Part shown: positions 58,872-64,000 of the stretch, piece by piece
How the letters are laid out: each line of letters starts with the position of its first letter
Numbering within the stretch: position 1 is the first letter of the stretch
Assembly (NCBI RefSeq): GCF_016862555.1
Contig: NZ_BONE01000038.1
Span: 1 to 64,000, forward strand
Reading direction: 5' to 3'
Length of the DNA stretch: 64,000 nucleotides
Source: Asanoa siamensis
GTDB lineage: Bacteria > Actinomycetota > Actinomycetes > Mycobacteriales > Micromonosporaceae
Notes under the pieces: model-generated
Seen by the model: only the letters and a program-made list of their open reading frames with translations
The model's database searches: none
What the model was told of the DNA's origin: nothing
Translations under genes and position numbers: made by a program

Positions 58872-59462
58872 CTACAGGTCGGCCAGCAGCGCGTCGAGGC
58901 GGTCGGTGTCGAGCCAGCCGTTCACCGCGACCGTGCCGGCGGCGTCGACGTCCACCTGGACCCGGTCGACGGTGCCGTCGTCCGGAATGTGGTCGCCGAG
59001 CACGACGAACTCCTGGTTGGTCGAACCGGCCCAGGGGCGGTCGTGGTCGATCCGGTCCCGCAGGAAGGGTCCCGCGATCAGCAGATCGGTGGCGGCGAGC
59101 AGGCGGGCCACGCCCGGCTGCCGGGTGGCCTGGCGGCGCAGGGCGGCGTAGGTGTAGCCCGAGAACGTGAGCATCGACCGGCCACCGGCGCGCACCCGCC
59201 GGGCCACCTCGGCCAGCCCGTCCGCCTGTTCGAACGGCTCGCCACCGAGCAGGGTCAGCCCCGTCGACGGCTCGCCGAGCACCCGGGCCGCCAGCGCGGC
59301 GGCCGTCCAGCGGATGCCGCCTTCGGCCGCGAAGAGGTGCGGGTTGAAGCACCCGGCACACCGGATGGTGCAACCCCGCACCCAGACGGCGGTACGCACG
59401 CCGGGACCTTCGGCCGTCGTGGTCGCCAGGTAGCGGGCGACGGTGACGGTCGGCTCAGACAT
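58872..59462 (-). CDS. Radical-SAM activase-like protein (NrdG-type, 4Fe-4S)
   Basis: 196 aa from ATG 59462. The cluster motif CTIRCAGC (C31-x3-C35-x2-C38) binds a 4Fe-4S centre that cleaves SAM; LLGGEPFEQADGL is the usual SAM-contact motif. It has the size and layout of ribonucleotide-reductase activases (NrdG) but has no nrdD neighbour. Its start overlaps the end of the helix-hairpin-helix gene by 8 bases. It is the last gene of the Ycf46-like operon and probably modifies or activates a partner in it (inference). Confidence 0.9.
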   Translation of the reverse strand: MSEPTVTVARYLATTTAEGPGVRTAVWVRGCTIRCAGCFNPHLFAAEGGIRWTAAALAARVLGEPSTGLTLLGGEPFEQADGLAEVARRVRAGGRSMLTFSGYTYAALRRQATRQPGVARLLAATDLLIAGPFLRDRIDHDRPWAGSTNQEFVVLGDHIPDDGTVDRVQVDVDAAGTVAVNGWLDTDRLDALLADL

Positions 59463-60111
59463 CGACGATGCGGTCCGGATAGGCGGCCGGGTTCTGCGGC
59501 GGGGGCGGCGGGGGCGGCTGCGCCGGGTGGGCGACGATCAGCGGGAGGACCCGGACGTACTCGTGGGGCTGCAGGCCCGCGACGTCGGAGAACTGGTAGA
59601 CGTCCGTGAAGCCGCCGAGCCGGTCCCGGGCGGCGAGGGCGAGCGCGGCCCGCCGGATGTCGAAGTGGGGCAGGGCGGCGATCTCGTCGACGCCGGCCGC
59701 GTTGACGTCGACGGGCTCGGCCGGGGGAGCGGGCCGGTCCGGGGGCGCAGTGGCGTAGCCCGGCGGCGGCACCAGGGGCGGTGTGGCGGCCCCGGGCCGG
59801 GTGCGCCACCGGAGCCACTCCGCGTTGACGAAGAACGCCTGGACGGCGCTGAACAGCCAGGCCAGCGCCAGCACGCCGGTGATCCACTCGTACGCGGTGG
59901 AGCCCTCCGCCACCGTCCCGAAGGCGATGTAGGCCGGGAACGCGACGGCGACGTACAGGATCCCGCTGATCCAGATCGACCTGCGGCGCATCACGGCGCC
60001 CAGCACGATGAACGCGCCACCGCCCAGGCAGCCGAGGCCGCCGATCGCCAGCAGGAGCCAGGAACTCTGGCCGAGCCGCCACCAGAAGCCGCGGTCAGTG
60101 CCGGTCGACAT
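59455..60111 (-). CDS. Membrane protein with a helix-hairpin-helix (ComEA-like) domain
   Basis: 218 aa from ATG 60111. Three or four predicted membrane segments lie in residues 13-100 (LGQSSWLLLAIGGLGCLGGGAFIVLGA, then WISGILYVAVAFPAYIAF in parts). A Pro-rich linker is followed by a helix-hairpin-helix-like domain VDVNAAGVDEIAALPHFDIRRA (about 135-200), in which the LNxAxxxEL pattern of ComEA is partly kept. A second Pro run precedes the C-terminus (PPPPPPPQNP). It joins a DNA-binding-like or protein-binding domain to the membrane. Overlaps the DUF2997-like gene by 17 bases. Confidence 0.85.
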   Translation of the reverse strand: MSTGTDRGFWWRLGQSSWLLLAIGGLGCLGGGAFIVLGAVMRRRSIWISGILYVAVAFPAYIAFGTVAEGSTAYEWITGVLALAWLFSAVQAFFVNAEWLRWRTRPGAATPPLVPPPGYATAPPDRPAPPAEPVDVNAAGVDEIAALPHFDIRRAALALAARDRLGGFTDVYQFSDVAGLQPHEYVRVLPLIVAHPAQPPPPPPPQNPAAYPDRIVDV

Positions 60112-60313
60112 CGGGCACCACCTCCGTCGCGTCGACCCGGGTCCGCGCGCGGTGGATGTCCGCGGTGTAGGCGCTGGACACCGTGGTCGCGTCCAGCAGG
60201 TCCTCGAGCACCGCGATGTGGTCGAGGCAGCCGGGCCCGTGCACGCCGTCGGTCCGCGCGCTGACCGTGCCGTCGGCGGCCACCACCACCGTCACCGTCT
60301 CCCGCGCGGTCAC
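60095..60313 (-). CDS. DUF2997-like small protein
   Basis: 72 aa from a GTG overlapping the Ycf35-like stop (GTGA). Pattern VTVVVAADGTVSARTDGVHGPGCLDH with EDLL resembles DUF2997: a beta-hairpin (DGxVxxxTxGxxGxxC) and then a short helix. In cyanobacteria and other bacteria DUF2997 genes sit directly beside Ycf35/DUF1257 genes, as here, which supports the match. Function unknown. Confidence 0.78.
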   Translation of the reverse strand: MTARETVTVVVAADGTVSARTDGVHGPGCLDHIAVLEDLLDATTVSSAYTADIHRARTRVDATEVVPDVDRH

Positions 60314-60747
60314 CCGCGCCGCCGTTCGACCGCGAAGACCATCCGCACCGCCGCGTCGTCGGTGACCGTCTCGGACTCCAGCCGCAGCCCGGCCGCCGGG
60401 GCGCGGTTTCGCAGCCGCTCGACGACCGCCGCCTGCACCTTCCGGCCGTACGCGACGTCGAGCCGACGGACGATCTCGACCGCCCGCTCCTCGTCGACGC
60501 CGCCGCGGAAGTGTGCCGCCCAGACGCCCTCGGCGTCGCGGGTGAACGCGGCGGTGACGCCGGCCCAGAGCGCGTCGATCCGGTCGGTGGCGTCGGTGAC
60601 GACGGCCCCGGTCTCCCGCAGCGCCGCCGCGAGCAGGCCGCTGTCGCGCATCCGGGTGGAGACCGTGCAGGTGGTGCCGCCCGCGCGGGCCTGGATCACC
60701 GCGGCCGCCGCGAGGGCCGCCGGGACCAGGATCAGGGACACGCTCAT
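60310..60747 (-). CDS. Ycf35/DUF1257-like protein
   Basis: 145 aa from ATG 60747. It has a hydrophobic N-terminus (SLILVPAALAAAAVIQARAG), which most Ycf35 proteins lack, so it may be membrane-tethered. The core shows the DUF1257 order: STRMRDSGLLAAALRETG, then ERAVEIVRRLDVAYGRKVQAAVVERL and AGLRLESETVTDDAAVRMVF, matching the family's RYAYxxVxxxAxxxGFxVxEE pattern. Its partner protein DUF2997 and the Ycf46-like ATPase are next to it. Biological role is not established. Confidence 0.75.
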   Translation of the reverse strand: MSVSLILVPAALAAAAVIQARAGGTTCTVSTRMRDSGLLAAALRETGAVVTDATDRIDALWAGVTAAFTRDAEGVWAAHFRGGVDEERAVEIVRRLDVAYGRKVQAAVVERLRNRAPAAGLRLESETVTDDAAVRMVFAVERRRG

Positions 60748-60774
60748 CGCACCCTCCCGCGCTCGTCGCGCACG

Positions 60775-62406
60775 TCAGAACTCGACATGGCGCCCGCCGT
60801 GGGGGCGCTGCCGCCCGTCGGCGCCGGGCCGCACCGGGCCCGGCTCGGGGTCGAGGTCCTCGGCGGCGGTCGCGGCGACCGCGCGGGCGTCGGCCCAGGC
60901 CCGCACGGCCGCGATCCGTTCGGCCTGGGTGACGCTGAGCGGCACCATGTTGGCCAGGGCCCGGACCACGTCGTCGCGGCGCAGCGGCCGTCGCTCGGCG
61001 AACGCGTCGTAGACCGCCGCGACGAGCGCGTGCTCGATCTCGGCGCCGGAGCAGCCCGCGCTGAGCCCGGTCAGCTCCGCGACCAGTCCGGCGTCGACCG
61101 TGAGGGGGGCGCCCACCCGCGGGTGGCGTAGCCACCGTCCGAGATGGAGCGTCCAGATCGCGTCGCGCTCGGCGCGGGTCGGCAGGTCGACGAAGAACAC
61201 CTCGTCGAACCGGCCCTTGCGGAGCAGCTCGGGTGGCAGGTGCTCGATCTGGTTGGCGGTGGCGATGACGAACACCGGGCGGCTCTTCTCCTGCATCCAG
61301 GTCAGGAACGAGCCGAACACCCGTGACGAGGTGCCGGAGTCGTTGGCGCCGGTGTCGGCGAAGCCCTTCTCGATCTCGTCGATCCAGAGCACGCAGGGCG
61401 AGACGGCCTCGGCGGTCCGGATCGCCCCGCGCATGTTCTGCTCGCTCGACCCGACCAGCCCGGCGAACACCCGGCCGATGTCGAGGCGCAGCAGCGGGAT
61501 GCCCCACGCGGCGGCGACCGCCTTGGCGGTCAGCGACTTGCCGCAGCCGGGCACGCCGGTGATCAGCACGCCGCGCGGCGCCGGCAGGCCGTAGTCCGCG
61601 GCGTCGGCCAACCAGGCGCCCTCGCGCCGGCCGAGCCAGCGCTTGAGGGTCTCCAGGCCGCCGATGTCGGTCAGGCGCGGGCCGCTGTCGACGAACTCGA
61701 GCAGGCCCGCCTTGCGTACCGTCTGCCGCTTCTCCTCCAGGATCACGGGGAGGTCGGCCAGGTGCAGCACGCCGTCGTCGACCATCGCGCGGGCGAAGGC
61801 GTTCTCGGCCTCGTGCAGCGTCAGACCGAGCGCGGCCTTGGCGAACCGCTCGCGGCCGGCGTCGTCGAGGTCGACACGCAGGCGCGGTGAGCCCGCGTTC
61901 GCGCGCAGCATGCCGTCGAGCACGCCGCGGATCTCCTGTTCGGACGGCAGTGGGAAGTCCGCGACGGTGACGTCCTTCTCCAGCTCCACCGGCACCCGGC
62001 TCACCGGCGATACCAGCACGAGCGTGCGGGGCTCGGATTCGGAGCGGAAGGCGGTCGCGACGTCGCGGAGCCGGCGGATCACGGCGGGGTCGCCGGGGTG
62101 ACCGGGCCCGCCCAGCACGGGGTGGAGGTCGCGGAAGACCGCGACCAGCGGCTGCCCCACCCGCAGCAGCGCGTCGAGCGCGTCGGCCGGGTCCGTGGTG
62201 CGGGCCTGTTCCTCGCCGTCGTCGCGGCGCAGGCCGTCGGTCAGCGACCAGGTCCACACCGGACGGGGCTTGCGGACGAGGTCGGCGTCGCCGGCGACGG
62301 CGCGCACCTCGAAGAGCACCCGCAGCTCCTCGTGCGACTCGATGGAGACGATGGGGAAGCGGGCCTTGAGCAACTGGGCGAGGGTGGTCCGGAAGGGCTG
62401 CTCCAC
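60775..62406 (-). CDS. Ycf46-like AAA+ ATPase
   Basis: 543 aa from GTG 62406; no clear ribosome-binding site. N-terminal 230 residues resemble the Ycf46 lead domain (FPIVSIESHEE, PLPSEQEIRGVL, LGLTLHEAENAFA). The linker EEKRQTVRKAGLLEF and IGGLETLKRWLGRR are hallmarks. AAA+ core: Walker A GVPGCGKS (284-291), Walker B VLWIDE (339-344), sensor IATANQIEHLP, arginine-finger RKGRFDEVF and sensor-2 SGAEIEHALVAA. Ycf46 is otherwise known from plastid and cyanobacterial genomes. It starts the five-gene operon, 46 bases from the PQQ-dehydrogenase stop. Confidence 0.9.
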   Translation of the reverse strand: MEQPFRTTLAQLLKARFPIVSIESHEELRVLFEVRAVAGDADLVRKPRPVWTWSLTDGLRRDDGEEQARTTDPADALDALLRVGQPLVAVFRDLHPVLGGPGHPGDPAVIRRLRDVATAFRSESEPRTLVLVSPVSRVPVELEKDVTVADFPLPSEQEIRGVLDGMLRANAGSPRLRVDLDDAGRERFAKAALGLTLHEAENAFARAMVDDGVLHLADLPVILEEKRQTVRKAGLLEFVDSGPRLTDIGGLETLKRWLGRREGAWLADAADYGLPAPRGVLITGVPGCGKSLTAKAVAAAWGIPLLRLDIGRVFAGLVGSSEQNMRGAIRTAEAVSPCVLWIDEIEKGFADTGANDSGTSSRVFGSFLTWMQEKSRPVFVIATANQIEHLPPELLRKGRFDEVFFVDLPTRAERDAIWTLHLGRWLRHPRVGAPLTVDAGLVAELTGLSAGCSGAEIEHALVAAVYDAFAERRPLRRDDVVRALANMVPLSVTQAERIAAVRAWADARAVAATAAEDLDPEPGPVRPGADGRQRPHGGRHVEF

Positions 62407-62451: not shown

Positions 62452-64000
62452 CTAGGGCGTCGCGCTCGGGGTCAGGACGACCTGGTCGGTGCCGGTCAGG
62501 CCGTCGGGGTCGGTGTAGGTCGCCACGAACACGCCGAACAGGTCGTCACCCGGACCGTGCCCGGGCGCCGACGTGGTGATGGTGCCGGTGCACCCGGTCG
62601 CCGAGGTGATCGGGTGGCCGTGCTCGTCGTGGCCGAGGATGTAGTTGACCGTGACGTTCGCGCAGTTCACGGGGTCGTTGTCGACCACGCTCACCTCGAA
62701 GGTGACCGTGTCGCCGAACTCGAACGGCTGCCCGTCGGCCGGCTGCACGAGCTCGACCTCCGGCGGGCGGGGGCCGACGACGAACTCGGGGATCTCGGCC
62801 GAGGCCGACCGGCCGGTGCTGTCGGTGACCTTCAGCGTGGGTCGGTAGGTGCCGGCCGCCGTGAACGTGTAGGACGGGTTGGGCGCGGTCGAGTCGACCC
62901 GGCCGTCGGCGTTGAAGTCCCACGCGTACCGCAGCGGGTCGCCGTCGGGGTCGACGGTGCCGGCGCTGGAGAACTGGACGACCAACGGCGGGTCACCCGC
63001 CAGCGGGGCGGCGCTGATCACCGGGATCGGCGTGCGGTTGCCGCGCACGAAGTCGAACCGGGCCAGCTGTGCGTCGGGGTTCTCCGAGAAGAAGCCGTCG
63101 CCGTATTCCAGAACGTAGAGCGCGCCGTCGGGGCCGAACTCCATGTCCATCGGGTTGTCGAAGACGAGCGACGGCAGCACCGGGCGGATGTCGTCGACGT
63201 TGCCGCGCCGGTCGAGCCGGAACTCCTTGGTGTAGTCGCGGCTCCACTCGTAGAACAGCGGCACGCCGTCATAGTATTCGGGCCACTTGACCCGCGATTT
63301 GTTGCGCCTGTCGTAGTCGTAGGCGGGGCCGCCCATCGGGCCGATGCCGCCCTCGCCCAGCTCGGGGAACTCCTGCGACACGCCGTACGAGTAGTTCACC
63401 TCGGCCTTCTCGACCGGAGGCAGCCGGGTGAGCCCCGTGTTGTGCGGCGAGTTGTTGACCGGCCGGCGGCAGTCGAACGGTGCGCCCGAGGTGCCGGTGG
63501 CGAAGTCGTAGTCCACATAGGCCAGATCCGGACCGACGCAGTACGGCCAGCCGTAGTTGGCCGGCTTGTCGACGCGCATCCAGCGGCCGTGCCCCGCCGG
63601 GCCACGGGCCGGGTCGGGTTCGCCCGCGTCCGGCGAGTAGTCGCCGACGTAGACGTCGTTGGTCTGCCGGTTGACCGCGAACCGGAACGGGTTGCGGAAG
63701 CCCATCGCGAAGATCTCGGGCCGGGTCTTGGGCGTGCCGGCCCGGAACAGGTTGCCGGACGGGACGGTGTAGCCGCCGTTGGGCTTCACCCTGATCCGCA
63801 GCAGCTTGCCGCGCAGGTCGTTGGTGTTCGCCGACGTCCGCTGGGCGTCGAACGCCGGGTTGCGGTTGGCCCGCTCGTCGATCGGCACGTACCCGTCGGA
63901 GAAGAACGGGTTGGTGTCGTCGCCGGTGGACAGGTAGAGGTTGCCCTTGCCGTCGAAGTCGATCTGGCCGCCGACGTGGCAGCAGATGCCGCGGTCGGTG
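62452..64000 (-). CDS. PQQ-dependent sugar dehydrogenase with PKD domain (5' end beyond the window)
   Basis: The gene runs off the right edge; the reading frame stays open to 64000. The visible 516 codons include the propeller (GICCHVGGQIDFDGKG, LRGKLLRIRVKPNG, FRNPFRFAVN, LEYGDGFFSENPDAQLARF in parts), a PKD domain (YAWDFNADGRVDS) and an Ig-like segment ending in VVLTPSATP. It is a paralogue of the gene at 43-3381 but lacks the C-terminal CBM6-like part; a ThuA domain may lie outside the window. Secreted, oxidising aldoses with PQQ. Followed closely by the Ycf46-like gene. Confidence 0.9.
   Translation of the reverse strand, partial: TDRGICCHVGGQIDFDGKGNLYLSTGDDTNPFFSDGYVPIDERANRNPAFDAQRTSANTNDLRGKLLRIRVKPNGGYTVPSGNLFRAGTPKTRPEIFAMGFRNPFRFAVNRQTNDVYVGDYSPDAGEPDPARGPAGHGRWMRVDKPANYGWPYCVGPDLAYVDYDFATGTSGAPFDCRRPVNNSPHNTGLTRLPPVEKAEVNYSYGVSQEFPELGEGGIGPMGGPAYDYDRRNKSRVKWPEYYDGVPLFYEWSRDYTKEFRLDRRGNVDDIRPVLPSLVFDNPMDMEFGPDGALYVLEYGDGFFSENPDAQLARFDFVRGNRTPIPVISAAPLAGDPPLVVQFSSAGTVDPDGDPLRYAWDFNADGRVDSTAPNPSYTFTAAGTYRPTLKVTDSTGRSASAEIPEFVVGPRPPEVELVQPADGQPFEFGDTVTFEVSVVDNDPVNCANVTVNYILGHDEHGHPITSATGCTGTITTSAPGHGPGDDLFGVFVATYTDPDGLTGTDQVVLTPSATP

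Follow-up and report, generated by a model that had tools for sequence, protein, structure and literature searches.

Ycf46, Ycf35/DUF1257 and DUF2997 are protein families kept in cyanobacteria and algal plastids, and they are among the closest described relatives of the system treated here. According to PMC7496141, which covers Slr0374 and cites Jiang et al. 2015, EcaB activity reportedly falls when Slr0374/Ycf46 is inactivated; the loss of ycf35 and ycf46 from plastids is treated in PMC5940233. In the literature on DUF1257/DUF2997, Ycf35, Ycf46 and slr0374, available mostly as open-access text and partly in excerpt, no settled function was found for Ycf46, Ycf35/DUF1257 or DUF2997, nor was the five-gene module described below; searches for ycf46 together with radical SAM, and for a 4Fe-4S single cluster domain together with an AAA protein and a helix-hairpin-helix (HHH) protein, likewise found no paper. 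Here, the window, that is, the whole stretch of 64,000 nucleotides analysed from Asanoa siamensis (contig NZ_BONE01000038.1, positions 1 to 64,000), carries on its minus strand, at 58872-62406, a real and intact operon for an AAA+ ATPase, a divergent DUF1257 protein, a DUF2997 protein, a membrane HHH protein and an NrdG-like radical SAM protein. It belongs to a genuine and widespread module for which no prior description was found and whose function we infer, and its most testable new fact is that ATPase and membrane protein have a C-terminal tail in common. We give an even chance to the view that the operon encodes one p97-like remodelling machine, with DUF1257 and DUF2997 proteins as adaptors, a shared docking tail and a radical SAM enzyme acting on a core protein.

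The five genes were described in the first-pass annotation as complete and overlapping or nearly abutting on one strand, and their coordinates and frames bear this out. The ATPase gene (543 amino acids; 60775..62406) is separated by a 27-bp gap from the gene of the DUF1257-like protein (145 amino acids; 60310..60747), and the subsequent genes for the DUF2997 protein (72 amino acids, GTG start; 60095..60313), the membrane HHH protein (218 amino acids; 59455..60111) and the radical SAM protein (196 amino acids; 58872..59462) overlap by 4, 17 and 8 bp, respectively. All five open reading frames (ORFs) are in frame from start to stop, and their GC content at third codon positions (0.93-0.97) matches that of the two flanking genes measured. 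The best Pfam E-values are 2.6e-31 for AAA (PF00004), 3.6e-12 for DUF2997 (PF11211), 1.2e-7 for HHH_3 (PF12836) and 9.7e-29 for Fer4_12 (PF13353).

The same association recurs in other genomes, as the first-pass annotation had expected. GTDB contigs were scanned with the ATPase, and the best 80 of 550 relatives, the window and six further genome stretches made up 87 loci, 86 of them with an AAA match; one locus (L092) corresponds to part of the window's ATPase gene. By family, the counts are 69 loci for DUF1257-like proteins, 57 for the membrane protein, 55 for DUF2997 and 54 for radical SAM, and some loci lacking one gene stop at contig edges. In 49 of the 86 AAA loci the five families stand together on one strand. 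They form 17 different arrangements, or 12 when additional membrane genes nearby are not counted, and the clustering is far beyond chance; every locus with AAA, radical SAM, DUF1257 and DUF2997 (49) also has the membrane family. By record title, the five-gene form is spread over six phyla, including Gastranaerophilales (Candidatus Melainabacteria), metagenome-assembled genomes (MAGs) of Sebaldella, Tannerellaceae and Armatimonadota, and an uncultured Tenacibaculum; besides Candidatus Melainabacteria, we take the phyla to be Actinomycetota, Bacillota, Fusobacteriota (Sebaldella), Bacteroidota (Tannerellaceae, Tenacibaculum) and Armatimonadota. It is present in none of the 12 cyanobacterial survey loci, and the 'plastid-type' framing under which the operon was first described is therefore too narrow. 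Sequence distances of the AAA, radical SAM, DUF1257 and DUF2997 proteins correlate (Mantel r 0.79-0.87, 0/2000 permutations), which shows co-inheritance, not interaction.

Plasmids also carry the module. With the same hidden Markov models (HMMs), all five families were found on plasmids of Rhodococcus aetherivorans (predicted conjugative) and Paenarthrobacter ureafaciens, where the AAA tails read GRTFEF and GRRIDF and the membrane-protein tails GRRLEF and GRTLDL, respectively. On a Treponema succinifaciens plasmid (L208, 2603-9572), a related radical SAM gene and an AAA gene (tail RKLEM) adjoin an annotated phage baseplate assembly protein V, and a VgrG-like gene (labelled by eye) lies upstream, which may indicate a connection with contractile tail or secretion structures. 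Two Omnitrophota loci (L059, L060) have AAA-DUF1257-DUF2997 without the radical SAM gene, and downstream of AAA they encode a protein in which paired CxxC stretches resembling a zinc ribbon, and a hydrophobic segment at the C-terminus, were recognised by eye. In a 1.4-Mb genome, a 5.9-kb contig (L090) holds AAA-DUF1257-DUF2997 amid RadC-like, SWIM-like, toxin-antitoxin-like and primase-like ORFs (by eye), a mobile-element-like setting.

The ATPase and the membrane protein end alike, in R-x-[ILV]-[DE]-[FLIVY] directly before the stop codon; in the window the tails are GRHVEF (60775..60795, minus strand; R-x-[ILV]-[DE]-F) and DRIVDV (59455..59475, minus strand). In strict form (R-x-[ILVM]-D-[FLIVYM]-stop), the tail was found on 110 of the 16,026 ORF frames of the loci, comprising 65/73 membrane-family proteins, 42/87 AAA proteins, 1/55 DUF2997 proteins and 2/15,688 unassigned frames. 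In a blind test, the last 12 residues were cut from both query and targets, which excludes selection by the tail itself, and a relaxed form (R-x-[ILVMA]-[DE]-[FLIVYMW]-stop) was present on 69 of the 71 membrane-family proteins recovered. Among 66 less-redundant membrane proteins (crude 3-mer filter, 72 of the 73 membrane-family proteins as input), Arg at position -5 is kept in 63 and Asp at -2 in 62, and between positions -7 and -21 conservation is weak, no position exceeding 0.9 bit; the residue preceding the tail Arg is Gly in 35/66 and Asp in the window. The tail is also present on other operon proteins, such as a TPR protein and an Mrr_cat nuclease (L027), GYF_2+HHH proteins, and, in a viral locus (L163), a SWIM-like protein (SWIM by eye) encoded between DUF1257 and DUF2997. 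The nuclease, encoded at L027:7809-8549 inside a Gastranaerophilales module, is predicted to be a restriction endonuclease of the Mrr type; its N-terminal part has hydrophobic stretches and its tail reads GRRLDV. Elsewhere, seven tailed HHH-family genes (L038:2296-7338) lie upstream of a single radical SAM-AAA-DUF1257-DUF2997 set.

Within the loci, and with kinship ignored, the Gly-Arg form of the AAA tail goes together with the other families. It occurs in 46/54 rows with the radical SAM family and in 3/32 without, the last three (L018, L023, L073) being short contigs, and in 48/57 rows with the membrane protein and 1/29 without; for the AAA tail in general, DUF2997 is present in 50/53 tailed and 6/33 untailed rows. 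In two actinomycetes, Sanguibacter and Flavimobilis, the loci hold the AAA gene and a tailed membrane protein only, with no DUF1257-like protein and no significant radical SAM match there, and the AAA tail is degenerate in one of this pair (L047, GRKVVF) and absent in the other (L056). A role of the tail as a genome-wide sorting signal was also considered and is not supported, as there was no enrichment over reversed controls: the Gly-Arg DNA pattern had three sites in the own genome, with a stop only at the AAA gene (10 for the reversed pattern), and a slightly wider pattern had 126 sites in 12 other actinomycete genomes vs 178 for its reversed control. This survey covered Gly-bearing tails, and its pattern would miss the window's HHH tail DRIVDV.

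The 72-amino-acid protein passes the DUF2997 gathering cut-off (46.4 bits vs 24.1), which confirms the family first assigned to it, and Gly15, Gly26 and Cys29 (Gly26-x2-Cys29) are identical in 32/32 aligned DUF2997 sequences (A2). The assignment of the 145-amino-acid protein to DUF1257 stood at the level of profiles and failed in the direct comparison. It had no Pfam match at E<=1 and did not reach the DUF1257 (PF06868) gathering cut-off, and 5 of 29 relatives (A1) match DUF1257 at E<=1. Comparison by hhalign of its family (A5; 24 sequences in all, from radical SAM modules and a short-contig relative) with a small set of seven DUF1257 proteins (A6) gave E=7e-7 and a probability of 92 over 89 aligned columns, and PF06868 was matched in 8/8 of a set overlapping A6 (A3); a comparison of A1 with A3 was set aside because two sequences are common to both. 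An iterated search from the window protein reaches cyanobacterial DUF1257 genes beginning MSHFSTLRTKI that directly adjoin Ycf46-type AAA genes. Profile comparison and iterated search together identify the protein as a divergent DUF1257, despite the failed direct Pfam test; the first-pass annotation had named the lack of DUF1257 and DUF2997 matches for the two small proteins as what would speak against it, and a direct match was lacking for one of the two. Among viral relatives, the DUF1257-like protein of L133 exceeds the Pfam cut-off (25.1 vs 22.2).

In solved structures, Foldseek with the AlphaFold 2 (AF2) model of the 145-amino-acid protein (predicted local distance difference test score, pLDDT, 86.7) found no match in the PDB at E<=0.001, the search with its family found just one designed protein at 0.0026 and two matches near E=1, and the search with DUF2997 found nothing. 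The hydrophobic N-terminus noted earlier for the Ycf35-like protein is present (residues 1-23), but residues 2-7 are modelled as a beta strand and residues 11-20 with low confidence, and an N-terminal membrane anchor is therefore not established. The family starts with Met-Ser in 24/24 sequences of A5, 7/7 of A6 and 55/69 loci proteins under automatic start choice, and 11 of the 14 others have an in-frame Met-Ser at a plausible start. That so few DUF1257 sequences depart from this start (window 60742-60747) suggests that a free N-terminus matters.

The ATPase has a Walker A motif (GVPGCGKS) at residue ~284 only, a Walker B motif (WIDE) and an intact second site, leaving one active-looking AAA site, and its first AAA-like domain lacks Walker A, as in 30/31 aligned members (by pattern). 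With one Walker A and 43-44% identity over ~500 residues to cyanobacterial proteins (L070, L072, L075), it is of the AAA type that we take to be the one named Ycf46. The AF2 monomer (pLDDT 84.4) aligns in Foldseek along p97, Cdc48, NVL, Rix7 and Drg1 chains over ~525-592 columns, with a best E-value of 1.2e-21 against p97/Cdc48-type chains among the 50 matches listed. The score for the curated Cdc48/p97 family is far under its cut-off (TIGR01243, 89.2 bits vs 802.65); judging by the model, the ATPase may be p97/Cdc48-like in its working, outside the family as such.

The 218-amino-acid protein is labelled a membrane protein on the basis of three hydrophobic segments (17-41, 45-69 and 76-95), which are followed by a linker and an HHH domain (hydropathy, Pfam). 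The HHH domain is optional in tailed proteins: neither the L047 protein nor a short L013 paralogue, both of them tailed, matches any Pfam domain.

The 196-amino-acid protein carries the motifs CTIRCAGC, GGEPF and GSTNQ, with CxxxCxxC conserved in an alignment of 23, and it matches Fer4_12 strongly and Radical_SAM at 0.0027, under that family's own cut-off; phmmer relates it to PFL-activating enzyme structures at 2.6e-5. Motif and AdoMet-domain similarity thus place it in the Radical SAM superfamily. Its best named family in NCBIfam is NrdG, which could point to an orphan or diverged NrdG that activates a ribonucleotide reductase and is clustered here by chance. However, its score (TIGR02491, 86.3 bits) is under the equivalog cut-off of 126.1, a profile search of the own genome gave no NRDD (PF13597) and no Gly_radical (PF01228) match, in agreement with the first-pass description of a radical SAM enzyme without a ribonucleotide reductase, and in 49 loci the gene is accompanied by the same four families. 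This explanation is largely refuted and only the faintest chance is left to it; a role as activase for NrdD or another glycyl-radical enzyme was rejected on the same profile searches. As NrdG-type motifs are present and the genome has no match to such a target, the substrate is probably a protein of the module itself.

Viral contigs help to narrow down this target. From 290 loci on viral contigs that carry a related AAA gene, the best 80 were surveyed over ~6 kb around that gene, with the DUF1257 and DUF2997 HMMs rebuilt once on viral matches. Ten loci have AAA, DUF1257, DUF2997 and radical SAM, one (L126) has all five families, and the rest comprise 11 with AAA+DUF1257+DUF2997, three with AAA+DUF2997, two with AAA+DUF1257 and 53 with AAA alone. 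The 11 loci with radical SAM represent nine distinct ATPases, the AAA proteins of L133, L135 and L136 being identical. The phage modules L130, L133 and L134 share the order AAA, RecA-like, DUF2997, (a small ORF in two), radical SAM and DUF1257, and the RecA-like protein of L133 matches RecA at 1.4e-16. In the ten radical SAM loci without a membrane protein (eight distinct ATPases) the ATPase is untailed, and in L126, with a membrane protein, it is tailed.

NrdG-like enzymes act on a glycine near the C-terminus of their protein partner (NrdD/PFL), and the Gly-Arg tail of the ATPase and membrane proteins might be the radical SAM substrate, modified for example at the glycine. The co-occurrence of the Gly-Arg tail with radical SAM among AAA rows fits this idea, but the ten untailed viral modules speak against it, as do AAA tails in loci without radical SAM (L059, L060, L064, L090), a membrane-protein tail in another (L047), and a glycine before the Arg in little more than half of the membrane proteins and replaced by Asp in the window; we hold it to be quite improbable. 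Since the viral radical SAM modules except L126 are untailed, the ATPase body, DUF1257 or DUF2997 are likelier targets of the enzyme.

The reading of the operon as one remodelling machine can then be set out as follows. The ATPase would form rings and unfold clients as a p97/Cdc48-like AAA+ remodeller, with the first ring probably inactive and the second active, and DUF1257 and DUF2997 would serve as its two small adaptors. The NrdG-like enzyme would put a radical or a backbone modification on one core protein, namely the ATPase body, DUF1257 or DUF2997. The p97 C-terminal PUB-interacting motif (PIM) binds PUB domains, and the PIMs of OTULIN and SPATA2 bind the HOIP PUB domain (PMC6995525). 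By analogy, the same motif on the flexible tail of the ATPase and on the tails of the membrane and sometimes other operon proteins may dock at a common site, and a common receptor could bring the machine to its membrane clients or partners. An ATP-driven membrane system with radical chemistry, as first supposed, is a plausible hypothesis. More tentatively, and with the greater part of our expectation on the other side, the operon could represent an undescribed radical-controlled AAA+ class, in which a dedicated NrdG-like enzyme would activate a p97-like core (ATPase, DUF1257 or DUF2997) through a modification of the glycyl-radical type, a shared C-terminal tag on the ATPase and on membrane or effector proteins would switch partners, and phages would carry a stripped-down core beside a RecA-like protein.

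The module might also be a mobile anti-phage or anti-plasmid conflict system, whose tailed proteins would act as effectors that the AAA machine receives or releases. Its patchy distribution is in line with this: DUF2997 is present in 50/300 genomes of the window's family, 4/200 of its order and 3/396 of a phylum sample (two over the Pfam cut-off), own genome included in each case, and is thus denser in the family than in the order or phylum. The plasmid copies, the viral versions and the tailed Mrr-type nuclease in L027 point in the same direction. However, in PADLOC only the ATPase has matches (to the IetA and mad8 models), the remaining four proteins having none at E<=1, a single tailed nuclease was seen, and the two window flanking genes scanned against Pfam are AHSA1-like and glucose/sorbosone-dehydrogenase-like. 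Clustering of neighbour genes by BLAST gave no recurrent defence neighbour, a weak negative because the clusters are mostly shadow ORFs and lineage-specific Gastranaerophilales neighbours. The probability of such a conflict system is accordingly put low. The search for known defence systems gave no convincing match for the operon. Upstream of it, 45 bp away on the same strand, the glucose/sorbosone-dehydrogenase-like protein (62452-63888) has a PKD domain, and a tRNA scan of the window found none.

Another explanation takes the module for a redox or Fe-S protein maturation or insertion factor, in which DUF1257/DUF2997 would hold a cluster or thiol, a radical SAM protein or ferredoxin would supply chemistry or electrons, and the AAA protein would remodel the client. 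The cyanobacterial cluster duf2997-ycf35-fed7 (PMC4284462), the iron-deficiency, oxidative and other stress responses of the Synechocystis slr0373-slr0374-slr0376 operon (PMC7496141) and the invariant Cys of DUF2997 are consistent with it. Against it, one conserved Cys alone makes no cluster site, and no redox client was noticed in the five-gene loci, where no systematic search for one was made. We therefore regard a maturation factor as unlikely.

Several observations weigh against the proposed remodelling machine with its docking tail. The best 80 of 550 relatives bias the survey toward this subfamily, and the Mantel correlations may stem from shared descent alone. Structural likeness to p97 is loose (template-modelling score 0.46-0.61 and root-mean-square deviation about 7-12 A among the matches listed), so that the resemblance lies in domain order and fold more than in exact arrangement, and in the AF2 monomer the tail of the ATPase (residues 522-543, pLDDT<50) is disordered, with no docking site visible. 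Cyanobacterial AAA proteins end in [QK]R[ML]EF, shifted by one residue relative to the tail motif, and a QR-EF pattern search of five cyanobacterial genomes found no tailed partner: 14 matches vs 13 in the control, made up of four Ycf46-type AAA proteins, five frames of 6-14 residues and five without a stop. L126 resembles Gastranaerophilales chromosomal modules, so the viral contrast between tail and membrane protein rests on one case, and 14 viral AAA proteins are tailed with neither radical SAM nor HHH nearby. Furthermore, DUF2997 has no match in the Sanguibacter and Flavimobilis genomes, which encode a tailed membrane protein, nor in a Methanosphaera MAG with tails on both proteins; conversely, it is present in the genomes of L061, L062, L065, L068 and L084 alongside an AAA protein that lacks the tail. 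For DUF2997 in the role of tail receptor there is the association within the loci, and genomes of both kinds contradict it; candidates for the receptor are the AAA protein itself or DUF1257. In the Methanosphaera MAG, which is archaeal, a module-type AAA gene (46% identity) lies at a contig end (L023), with a tailed membrane gene running the other way, and mis-binning of the contig is possible.

The first-pass annotation is thus partly supported, and it lacked the shared tail, the viral versions and the plasmid copies. For families kept in cyanobacteria and plastids, the five-gene form supplies fixed partners in named non-cyanobacterial strains, namely a radical SAM enzyme and tailed membrane proteins, and the tail offers a concrete handle, a five-residue peptide for fishing out the receptor. 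If the radical SAM enzyme does modify the AAA machine or its adaptors, radical chemistry would be tied to a protein-remodelling motor.

Compared with known systems, the window radical SAM protein shares with the NrdG activase the CxxxCxxC, GGEP and GS-x-N motifs, the last being an NrdG feature, and the Fer4_12 domain, and it differs in falling under the equivalog cut-off in a genome without an NrdD match. With IetA, the ATPase of the anti-phage system IetAS, the window ATPase shares similarity of the AAA domain (75 bits in PADLOC), but it reaches only 68.4 of 510 bits in NCBIfam, far under the cut-off, and is not assigned to IetAS. With Cdc48/p97, it has in common the two-domain AAA fold seen by Foldseek, a flexible C-terminal tail and a motif common to the ATPase tail and other proteins (PMC6995525), whereas its first domain lacks Walker A, its tail sequence differs, its 543-residue chain is probably too short to fit a p97 N-domain, and it is encoded in a bacterial operon with a radical SAM gene. 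The cyanobacterial Ycf46/Ycf35/DUF2997 proteins belong to the same families, with AAA followed by DUF1257 in 11 cyanobacterial survey loci, where the AAA proteins carry the related tail [QK]R[ML]EF. In contrast to the window, these loci show no radical SAM gene and no tailed membrane protein, and the twelfth (L062) has radical SAM beside AAA only; cyanobacterial DUF1257 begins MSHF and the window-type protein MSVSLIL, and DUF2997/DUF1257 of cyanobacteria are described, in PMC4284462, with a ferredoxin (fed7) instead of a radical SAM enzyme.

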